Below, in pieces: positions 23,159-25,804 of a DNA stretch of 41,564 nucleotides (position 1 is the first letter of the stretch; every line of letters starts with the position of its first letter). The position numbers and the translations under genes were made by a program. Origin of the DNA: Candidatus Aegiribacteria sp. GTDB taxonomy: Bacteria; Fermentibacterota; Fermentibacteria; Fermentibacterales; JCC-6. The notes under the pieces were generated by a model that searched no databases, was not told where the DNA came from, and was given only the letters and a program-made list of their open reading frames with translations. The DNA is taken from assembly GCA_021108435.1 (NCBI GenBank), contig JAIOQY010000144.1, positions 1 through 41,564 on the forward strand, in the 5' to 3' direction.

Positions 23159-23710
23159 TCAGCGAGACCCGCTGGTGCCAGAGGTGCCGCTGGTGCCTGA
23201 TCTTGTTCCGCTCCCTGTCGAAGAGGACGATCTTGAAGTTCCAATATGATTAATGGTATATCTGAGATCAGCGACTTCAGAACTGAGATTGCTGAGTTCT
23301 GTCTTCAGTGAATCGTTTTCCAGAATAAGGCTGTCCAGTGAAAGGACAACTTCATTCAGTGACTCATCAATAACTGTCATGCTGTCTGTAAGCAGATTCA
23401 TTGAGTCCTCGAGACCCTCGACATCGGAAATGGTTATAATCTTTTCCTCGGAAGGTTCGATGTCACCTGGTTCATCACTTTCCTCTACTGAACGTTCCGT
23501 AGTCCCGGAAATTTCACCGGTTTCAAGGAAAGTAACCCTTTCATCAAGGTCTTCAATGTCGTCCAACACCTGAGTAAAACTGTTTGTAAGCTCGGAATCA
23601 TCATAGCTCACAGAAGTCTCCAGAACATCAACTCTCTCTTCAAGCTCTCCTACTCCCGGCATATTACATGCAAGCAGGAGAAACGCACCGGTCAAAATTG
23701 CGAGCTTCAT
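23159..23710 (-). CDS. Small coiled-coil lipoprotein with Ser/Gly/Thr-rich tail
   Basis: The 183-residue product has a lipoprotein signal MKLAILTGAFLLLAC (lipobox LLAC). Two heptad-rich segments follow, near residues 22-65 (GELEERVDVLETSV) and 95-155 (LNEVVLSLDSLILENDSLKT), separated by an acidic linker. The C terminus is low complexity with short SGT repeats. The build recalls Lpp-like or YbgF-N-like envelope spacers, but no family is recognised. The ATG overlaps the AMMECR1 stop as ATGA, so it is coupled to the AMMECR1-MEMO-dap group. Confidence 0.75.
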   Translation of the reverse strand: MKLAILTGAFLLLACNMPGVGELEERVDVLETSVSYDDSELTNSFTQVLDDIEDLDERVTFLETGEISGTTERSVEESDEPGDIEPSEEKIITISDVEGLEDSMNLLTDSMTVIDESLNEVVLSLDSLILENDSLKTELSNLSSEVADLRYTINHIGTSRSSSSTGSGTRSGTSGTSGTSGSR

Positions 23711-24264
23711 TCAGAATCAGCCCCTTCCTCCGATTCGCCGAATACTTCGGCTGTGTATGTGTATATCTGAACATCTTCCTGACGAAAACAGTCCGGTGAC
23801 AGTCCCGCCTTGAGACATGTATGTGAAAGGAAGGTTTCTCTGTCCCATCTCTGCTCGATGGCAACCTGTGGAAGCAGAGTTCCGGCTCGGAATCCTGATT
23901 TGATATAGATACCGTGAATTCCTGGAACTACATTTTCCGCTCTGGTCAGGATCATCGGGCTTAAAAGGGAAATCTCCAGATCAATTCCATCCACGTCCTC
24001 GGGACTGACCTTCGGAAACCTCGGATCGCTAACGGCAGCTGAAGCCGCCATTTCAATCACGGTCTGTCCCAGAGAACCCGTTCCTGTAAAATGGCCTATA
24101 CAACCCCTGAGTAAGCCATCCTTCCTGAGAGTAACAAAAGCGCCGCCTTCCCTTTCAAAGACATCTCCCGATGGTATGTCCGGAAGCTGTTTTCCGGCTG
24201 CTGCAGCTTCAACAGACCTTCTTGCAAGATCCAGTATTCTCTTTCTGCAGGCAGAATCAGTTAT
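23707..24264 (-). CDS. AMMECR1 domain protein, apparently starting at AUA
   Basis: The 185-residue product is a complete AMMECR1 domain. The helical N terminus RKRILDLARRSVEAAAAGK leads to the core LRGCIGH motif (LLRGCIGHFTGTG), AASAAVSDPRFPKV, LEISLLSPM and TLLPQVAIEQRWDRETFL. The first canonical start in the frame (GTG 24060) would delete the LRGCIGH core. Instead AGGAGG sits exactly 7 nt before ATA 24262-24264, which overlaps the MEMO stop as ATAA. AMMECR1 proteins occur with MEMO and a radical SAM protein (AmmeMemoRadiSam), whose chemistry is not settled. No radical SAM partner is present here except the unrelated rimO. Confidence 0.88.
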   Translation of the reverse strand: MTDSACRKRILDLARRSVEAAAAGKQLPDIPSGDVFEREGGAFVTLRKDGLLRGCIGHFTGTGSLGQTVIEMAASAAVSDPRFPKVSPEDVDGIDLEISLLSPMILTRAENVVPGIHGIYIKSGFRAGTLLPQVAIEQRWDRETFLSHTCLKAGLSPDCFRQEDVQIYTYTAEVFGESEEGADSE

Positions 24265-25076
24265 TCCTGAACCTCCTTTGCGGTGTAACCGGCAAAATAT
24301 CCTACAACGGAGTTTCTATCTCCGCTGGCTGTCGCGGATGTATCCCACATGATTTCACCGAATTTAACAGAACCGGCAATTATGGAGTAATTCATTAGCG
24401 TAAGCATGGGGCCGCCTCCGCATGCCTCGATTCCGCTTGAAAGAACACCATTCAGATTAATCGGATCTCCACTGACAAATGCGTCGATCACCTTTCTATC
24501 CATTCGCTTCGCTTCGTCATAAGGATGGTAATGTGAAAGGTCACTTGAAGCCACTATCAGAATATCCTCTCTGTTCTTCAGAACATCGTGGAGATTCTCG
24601 GCAAGAGTTCGCGAATGGCCATTGAACACAGAGCCCTGAAGAATAACAACGATGGATGCGTCAGGCCACTTTGTCTGGATGAAAGGAATCTGAACTTCTG
24701 CTGAATGCTCTCCTCTGTGAGCAGGAGCCTGGAAGGAAAGGCCGGAGTCCAGCAGATCGGCAGTTATTTCACTGTCAATCATTGCGACACCAAGCGGTGT
24801 TAAGTATCCCTCTCCTTCGTAAACCGACGCACCATGAACCGGATATCCGTGCGATGGCGCCAGTATAATAACTGTACTCACGCCAGCCGGAGCAGAAGCA
24901 AATGCGGCTCCAGCCACTGCACCGGAGTAAACATATCCTGCATGAGGGCTCACAAGACCGGTTATTAAGCTGTCAGGTTTTCTGCCTGAGAACGACATGA
25001 AATCGGCGATCATCGAACTCAGATGTTCTCCGTCTGACGGGTAGAACATACCTGCTACCACCGGATTCCGTATCAT
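24261..25076 (-). CDS. MEMO1 family protein
   Basis: A 271-residue protein of the MEMO family, structurally related to class III ring-opening dioxygenases. Family landmarks are NPVVAGMFYPSDGEHL at the start, LVSPHAGYVYSGAVAG with a conserved His, IILAPSHGYPVHG, HRGEHSAEVQIPF and VASSDLSHYHPYDEAKR. The conserved histidines form a metal-binding-like pocket. The family is cytoplasmic and its bacterial reaction is unknown. The stop overlaps the AMMECR1 start and its ATG overlaps the dapB stop (ATGA), so the pair is embedded in a lysine-biosynthesis run. Confidence 0.9.
   Translation of the reverse strand: MIRNPVVAGMFYPSDGEHLSSMIADFMSFSGRKPDSLITGLVSPHAGYVYSGAVAGAAFASAPAGVSTVIILAPSHGYPVHGASVYEGEGYLTPLGVAMIDSEITADLLDSGLSFQAPAHRGEHSAEVQIPFIQTKWPDASIVVILQGSVFNGHSRTLAENLHDVLKNREDILIVASSDLSHYHPYDEAKRMDRKVIDAFVSGDPINLNGVLSSGIEACGGGPMLTLMNYSIIAGSVKFGEIMWDTSATASGDRNSVVGYFAGYTAKEVQE
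24262..24277 (-). promoter_or_regulatory. Ribosome binding site AGGAGG with ATA in start position
   Basis: On the minus strand AGGAGG (24272-24277) is followed by 7 nt and then ATA (24262-24264), which opens the full AMMECR1 frame. Strength and spacing are ideal. This decides the start, although the codon is near-cognate. Confidence 0.7.
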
Positions 25077-25804
25077 TTTTCATCTCTTTTGCTCATCATG
25101 TCCTCCATTGAGTAAAGTCCTGGAGGTTTTCCAAAAATAAAATCTGCCGCTTTCAGCGCTCCGATGGCGAACGTTCTCCGTCCAGTAGCTGAATGAGACA
25201 GAAGAAGTTTCTCTCCGTCTCCAAGCAGATAGAGCTGGTGATCTCCGACTATATCACCACCTCTGACGGAATGAATGCCTGTTTCATCCGGGCTTCTTGG
25301 CCCTGCAGGTCCGGATCTGCCATAGGTGATCTTCTTTCCGCCGCCGTTCTTCTCCCAGATATTCAGCAAAGTAAGAGCTGTTCCGCTGGGACTGTCGATC
25401 TTCCCGCTGTGGTGAAATTCAACAATCTCAAGGTCGAAATCATCGGCAAGCATGGAGGCTGCGGTCTGCAGAAGTCTGCCAAGAACAAATATCCCCATAC
25501 TCATATTGGATGAAAAGAAAACGGGTCTAACCGAAGACCACTTTCGAAGCAGTTCCATCTCGGCATTTCCCAGCCCGGTAGTTCCTGACACGAGCCCCGC
25601 AGTGTTGCCTTGAAGCAGTTTATCAAGGTCTTCCCAGGCGGATGGAAGGGTAAAATCTATGACCGTATCGACTTCAGGAGGAAGCTTTCCATCAACAGAG
25701 TTTCCCGGAGTGGTTATGTCATAGCACGCTATTATGGAGGAGCCTGCCTCTTCTCTGACAAGTCGCCCCATTCTCCCTTCACTGCCGAATACACAGATTT
25801 TCAT
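25073..25804 (-). CDS. dapB: 4-hydroxy-tetrahydrodipicolinate reductase
   Basis: A 243-residue NAD(P)H-dependent reductase of the diaminopimelate/lysine pathway. The nucleotide-binding start is VFGSEGRMGRLV, and the catalytic and substrate motif is EFHHSGKIDSPSGTAL with H131, H132 and K135. The middle motif SGTTGL and the SSNMSMGIFVLG stretch are also typical. It overlaps dapA upstream and MEMO downstream, so it forms a tight dapA-dapB-MEMO-AMMECR1 unit. The length is slightly shorter than E. coli DapB (273), as in many DapB proteins. Confidence 0.95.
   Translation of the reverse strand: MKICVFGSEGRMGRLVREEAGSSIIACYDITTPGNSVDGKLPPEVDTVIDFTLPSAWEDLDKLLQGNTAGLVSGTTGLGNAEMELLRKWSSVRPVFFSSNMSMGIFVLGRLLQTAASMLADDFDLEIVEFHHSGKIDSPSGTALTLLNIWEKNGGGKKITYGRSGPAGPRSPDETGIHSVRGGDIVGDHQLYLLGDGEKLLLSHSATGRRTFAIGALKAADFIFGKPPGLYSMEDMMSKRDEK

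Follow-up and report, generated by a model that had tools for sequence, protein, structure and literature searches.

The window, i.e., the whole stretch of 41,564 nucleotides that was analysed, is contig 144 of a genome of 2.92 Mb in 218 contigs (G000). On its minus strand a gene for a MEMO protein is followed by a gene for an AMMECR1 protein, and the features of this region are, in the order in which they are read:

25073..25804, minus strand: dapB-like gene, upstream, ATGA overlap with MEMO
24261..25076, minus strand: MEMO gene (AmmeMemoRadiSam protein B), from ATG 25076 to TAA 24263-24261
24272..24278, minus strand: Shine-Dalgarno sequence AAGGAGG within the MEMO tail, AAGGAGGT (8 nt) when 24271 is included
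24262..24264, minus strand: ATA, proposed start codon of AMMECR1, ATA in 5 of 15 and ATG in 10 of 15 genomes of the genus
24261..24263, minus strand: MEMO stop codon TAA, two-base overlap with the ATA (ATAA)
23707..24264, minus strand: AMMECR1 gene (AmmeMemoRadiSam protein A), 185 codons plus TGA
24058..24060, minus strand: GTG, codon 69 of AMMECR1, first in-frame canonical start, within the domain
23159..23710, minus strand: downstream ORF, 183 aa, no Pfam match, ATGA overlap with AMMECR1

At the junction the minus strand reads GCAAAGGAGGTTCAGGAATAACTGATTCT and presents, one after the other, AAGGAGG, TTCAGGA and ATA (24264-24262). As had been described in the initial annotation, and as is borne out by the minus-strand sequence from 24280 to 24250, AGGAGG (24277-24272) precedes the ATA by 7 nt, and the ATA overlaps the MEMO stop codon as ATAA. 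The spacing is proper for a Shine-Dalgarno sequence, and the overlap of stop and start is of the type seen in pairs coupled by termination and reinitiation. The ATG/TGA overlaps reported there for the neighbouring junctions were likewise found, as ATGA at 25076-25073 (dapB/MEMO) and at 23710-23707 (AMMECR1/next ORF).

Pfam identified both Memo and AMMECR1, the latter at residues 12-175 of the 185 residues that are encoded from the ATA to the first stop (TGA 23709-23707), and scores of 168.9 bits for TIGR04335 (cut-off 99) and of 227.9 bits for TIGR04336 (cut-off 26) identify AmmeMemoRadiSam proteins A and B, respectively. The direct neighbours of this pair are dapB and the ORF without a Pfam match. 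The AMMECR1 frame already opens 17 codons before the ATA and, just as the initial annotation had it, contains no ATG, GTG or TTG before GTG 24060; in-frame codons of these three kinds occur in AMMECR1 at positions 69, 72, 91 and 104 only, and residue 53 is the first of the RGCIG motif. The additional claim that GTG 24060 lies after the conserved core holds for the RGCIG motif, but the codon is only about one third into the AMMECR1 domain and not past the whole core. Residues following the ATA (TDSA.RK..LDLA) match the N-terminus that follows the ATG in relatives. When 111 coding-scored ORFs in 194,494 bases of G000 (the window and 20 contig stretches) were inspected, four had no canonical start near the onset of coding and AMMECR1 was the clearest of them, with a coding score of 9.4 lost before the first canonical start versus 1.6, 0.9 and 0.3 for the other three. 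Gene finders that accept no starts other than ATG, GTG and TTG would truncate this conserved gene or overlook it. A second MEMO-AMMECR1 copy of G000 (L001, G000:C182:14286-14780) is fused and has a signal-peptide-like N-terminus.

The closest public relatives of the MEMO gene belong to MAGs named Candidatus Aegiribacteria or Fermentibacteria, and G000 is a Candidatus Aegiribacteria-like MAG. Our set for this genus comprised 19 genomes (G000-G018), 15 of which have a readable separate MEMO/AMMECR1 junction; left out were G003, G005, G014 and G015, with a fused or partial copy only or with none found. Loci L049, L050 and L054 appear to come from assemblies identical to G008, G006 and G004 and were not counted as independent, and the contig of L051 (84% for MEMO) stops short of the junction. 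The aligned first codon of AMMECR1 is ATA in five of the 15 genomes, namely in G000 and, with AMMECR1 identities to G000 in brackets, in G006 (92%), G004 (88%), G008 (84%) and G018 (68%). The other ten have ATG, which is shifted downstream by one codon in G007 and aligned with the ATA in the rest. The initial annotation had named relatives with an ATG and no use of AUA as one observation that would refute its reading, and this was encountered only in half: ten genomes do carry ATG, but four besides G000 have ATA. The ATA of G000 shows the signs of a near-cognate (AUN) start: there is no canonical start within reach, it occupies the ATG position of relatives, it lies at a proper distance from a Shine-Dalgarno sequence, and it is conserved between species. 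Among the rows listed for more distant relatives, no ATA was found at the aligned codon. The ATAA overlap is present in four of the five ATA genomes, G004 being the exception. In the latter genome (L016/L054, G004:C259) the MEMO tail is one base shorter, so that the MEMO stop becomes a TGA five bases on and the ATA is retained; this base loss, real or an error (contig coverage 8), also places an in-frame TTG 10 codons before the ATA. Nucleotide conservation at the junction was unremarkable, and an extra conserved element there was unsupported since a 40-nt run identical between G000 and G008 is tied by another such run elsewhere.

In a joint tree, G000, G006, G008 and G004 form a clade with a support of 100/99, G018 groups with G013, a species with ATG (99/96), and the codon state amounts to two changes. 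A single origin, with the five ATA genomes forced together, was marginally rejected (AU p = 0.0415, for a group chosen after the first trees had been seen). Outgroup rows with ATG and GTG are compatible with a putative ancestral ATG and two G-to-A changes. The mutation from ATGA to ATAA with a preserved MEMO stop, which the initial annotation had offered as an option, is well supported by this tree and by the ATG of relatives and has apparently occurred twice. Pairwise dN/dS values for AMMECR1 within the ATA clade ranged from 0.11 to 0.29 (NG86) or from 0.14 to 0.36 (YN00), and G018/G013 gave 0.24 or 0.32; within the ATA clade, AMMECR1 evolves under purifying selection and is maintained as a protein. 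The ATA persisted within pairwise dS values of about 0.22-0.65. One A-to-G change would bring back ATG, with TGA then as MEMO stop, and the persistence of ATA suggests that there is no strong pressure to revert, the lack of reversal not being significant over so short a tree.

Duplex energies of the AMMECR1 Shine-Dalgarno sequence with the textbook anti-Shine-Dalgarno sequence were -12.3 in G000, G006 and G008, -11.2 in G004 and -10.9 in G018, and reached up to -12.0 in the ATG rows. A stronger Shine-Dalgarno sequence with ATA is therefore no strict rule, as G018 and G004 do not lie above the ATG species. An initiator-type tRNA gene (GGGCTCATAACCC) was found in 7/7 genomes searched, with a tRNA-Met(CAU) in 6/6 loci scanned (G008 being without a locus). 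An altered initiator tRNA was discarded as an explanation because the tRNA gene is of the ordinary type, modifications not being readable from DNA.

Might the AMMECR1 protein begin elsewhere? CTG at codon 11 (24234-24232 in G000) is present in 5/5 ATA species, and upstream in-frame codons exist in two of them, TTG at -10 in G004 and GTG at -28 in G008. A start at the CTG would lack an AGGAGG-like site ahead of it and would drop ten residues matched after the ATG of relatives, and the open frame of G000 and G006 extends only 17 codons upstream, with no canonical start in this part, so that a different start seems very unlikely. We also considered that ribosomes shift by -1 shortly ahead of the MEMO stop codon and so make a fused MEMO-AMMECR1 protein, with the internal AGGAGG as stimulator. 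Fused MEMO-AMMECR1 proteins are common, G000 itself has one, and AMMECR1 occupies the -1 frame, with 17 open codons upstream. However, no slippery run of the form X-XXY-YYZ exists at the MEMO end of the four ATAA genomes (GTT CAG GAA TAA or GTT CAG AAA TAA), the ATG of relatives sits exactly at the ATA position, and ATG has likewise changed to ATA at a second, unrelated pair of genes and in a gene that no upstream gene overlaps; frameshifting is very unlikely on these grounds.

Purifying selection on AMMECR1 makes both decay and sequencing error unlikely. That the separate copy is silent or decaying while the fused copy suffices would fit the occurrence of fused copies in G000 and several other genomes of the genus, but ATG species possess a fused copy as well, and in the ATA clade the frame has stayed open in four species and dN/dS is 0.11-0.36, which renders this highly improbable. 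An error of sequencing or assembly at 24262 might be suspected in a genome bin of 218 contigs; given the same ATA in the genomes of four other species, with AMMECR1 identities of 68-92%, its probability is close to nil.

The explanation that we favour is that translation of AMMECR1 very probably begins at the AUA (24264-24262), a codon that would derive from ATGA, through the joint action of fMet-tRNA, the Shine-Dalgarno sequence and ribosomes terminating on MEMO. AUA as initiation codon had already been proposed in the initial annotation, and the proposal is well supported, since the conserved ATA stands precisely where relatives have their ATG. A single G-to-A change would have converted an ancestral ATGA overlap to ATAA, turning the MEMO stop from UGA to UAA and leaving AUA as the start. 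Ordinary fMet-tRNA (anticodon CAU) would then initiate with two paired positions and a mismatched third base, while the well-spaced 8-nt Shine-Dalgarno sequence would hold a 30S subunit or a ribosome terminating on MEMO with the AUA in the P site, and ribosomes finishing MEMO one base further on would assist AMMECR1 initiation. The ATA state would have been maintained in three sister species and have arisen a second time in G018. Weak AUN starts would be tolerated in the genus and might possibly serve low or IF3-responsive expression. We infer all of AUA use, coupling to MEMO termination, lower yield and IF3 sensitivity, and for the inefficiency and IF3 sensitivity of AUA we draw on other bacteria (PMC13009471, PMC9955659). 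The low AMMECR1-to-MEMO ratio that the initial annotation expected might be deduced from the weakness of AUA elsewhere, and beyond this a low ratio as the purpose of the AUA is not supported; fused MEMO-AMMECR1 copies, of which the one in G000 fixes a ratio of 1:1, argue that such a ratio is acceptable and do not favour the idea.

In Staphylococcus aureus, AUA and AUU starts with an extended Shine-Dalgarno sequence reach about 10-30% of AUG in vivo, and conserved starts of this type include those of ccpN, infC, citZ (AUA) and cvfC1 (AUU), according to PMC13009471. The AMMECR1 start resembles them in that an AUN codon follows a long Shine-Dalgarno sequence and is conserved across species, as are part of the S. 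aureus genes. In contrast, the S. aureus starts were shown by ribosome profiling and reporters, whereas ours is predicted from sequence, and they are not described there as AUAA overlaps; they belong to another phylum and, except for infC, to unrelated genes. The four-nucleotide stop/start overlap within an operon is shared with the ATGA overlaps of termination-reinitiation (PMC6728339), the start being AUA in our case. When aUAA replaced AUGA in E. coli in a context without a Shine-Dalgarno sequence, zero downstream product was obtained (PMC9955659). These S. aureus and E. coli results bracket the AMMECR1 case, so the Shine-Dalgarno sequence should be decisive. An AUN start with a strong Shine-Dalgarno sequence is known, and the new aspects here are its recurrence and its position where stop and start overlap as ATAA. 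Among the papers listed in literature searches, none was seen that treats an AUA start in AMMECR1 or in Aegiribacteria, although this does not prove that there is none.

The infC gene of E. coli starts with AUU, by which IF3 regulates its own synthesis, a case also mentioned in PMC13009471. Similarly, infC of the genus (L153, G000:C46:31659, and other loci) starts behind AGGAGG, at the same codon in 11/11 loci, with ATT (4) or ATC (7), i.e., AUU or AUC; in G006 and G007 canonical codons are also present far upstream in frame. Unlike infC, AMMECR1 encodes no translation factor and no autoregulation is implied.

Other non-AUG starts were surveyed mainly behind AAGGAGG, and the counts are lower bounds that are biased to strong Shine-Dalgarno sequences. 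G000 contains 20 matches to AGGAGG-N5-8-ATAA, and at two of these the overlap is flanked on either side by a long coding-like frame and an early canonical start is missing. For AAGGAGG-N4-8-ATA there are 27 matches in the whole genome, and the filter, which demanded a long coding-like frame and neither an early nor an upstream canonical start, was passed by three: AMMECR1, a gene on C30 and a gene on C182. The form with ATC or ATT was present at 61 places, and from 31 sites in 30 loci examined only infC passed. With ATG there were 51 places, and 24 of 30 examined look like real starts. Among the candidates set aside were glmS and a repeat protein, in which the ATA is internal, L195, L204 and L207, which have an upstream ATG, GTG or TTG in frame, L358 (46 codons only) and L258, whose apparent G000 counterpart L204 has an upstream in-frame ATG. 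G006 yielded three passes from 33 sites (AMMECR1, the C30 orthologue and one doubtful short frame), G008 a doubtful one from 19, with its AMMECR1 excluded by the in-frame GTG at -28, G018 none from 30, G011 one from 32, G013 none from 17, and G004 none in seven loci examined of 18 places.

On sequence grounds, the C30 and C182 genes are two further probable AUA starts of G000 behind AAGGAGG. The C30 gene (L234/L190, G000:C30:16876) encodes a 249-codon membrane-type protein without a Pfam match and has an ATAA overlap with an upstream glycogen-synthase-like ORF, both names coming from reading translations. Its codon is ATA in G000 and G006 (L235) and ATG in six others including the sister species G008, which has an ATGA overlap; 12 rows were listed, four with unclear N-termini. 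A strong Shine-Dalgarno sequence (-12.1 to -12.6) precedes this gene only in G000, G006 and G008, the others having -3.2 to -8.3. Possibly the Shine-Dalgarno sequence came first and made AUA tolerable, which fits the strong Shine-Dalgarno sequence yet ATG of G008. The C182 gene (L211/L214, G000:C182:4290, minus strand) encodes a 227-codon secreted-protein paralogue with a signal-peptide-like N-terminus, from a family with 13 matches in G000 and 16 in G006. The corresponding position in 14 other relatives listed shows 12 ATG, one GTG and one ATG two codons on, and as the ATA is known from one genome, it may be a sequence error there.

The match in G011 (L270:1516, G011:C15:48078; orthologues L457-L464) is an NtrC-like, sigma-54-type response regulator with a strong Shine-Dalgarno sequence before the codon. 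When 11 orthologues are aligned, six have ATC at this codon, G011 has ATA and two have ATG, and two codons upstream of it there is ATG in G000 and ATT in G006. Upstream canonical codons are found in G003 (ATG at -5), G002 and G016 (GTG at -3), G017 (GTG at -19) and G006 (GTG at -26); only G011, G013 and G018 are free of any such alternative in the open frame. Judging from these alignments, the regulator probably has a conserved AUC or AUA start in several species.

We tentatively suggest that the genus may discriminate the third base of the start codon only loosely when the Shine-Dalgarno sequence is near-perfect, with AUA, AUC and AUU possibly serving as regular low-level starts (infC, AMMECR1, the NtrC-like regulator, the membrane and the secreted protein) and AUG and AUA perhaps exchanging repeatedly at stop/start overlaps. 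If AUA is used, natural AUG/AUA pairs are available within the genus at identical junctions, with two apparent changes in one gene and one in another, which could show what a weak start costs where two genes are coupled and whether a strong Shine-Dalgarno sequence makes it near-neutral. A natural aUAA with a Shine-Dalgarno sequence would complement the negative result published for E. coli, in which this sequence was absent.
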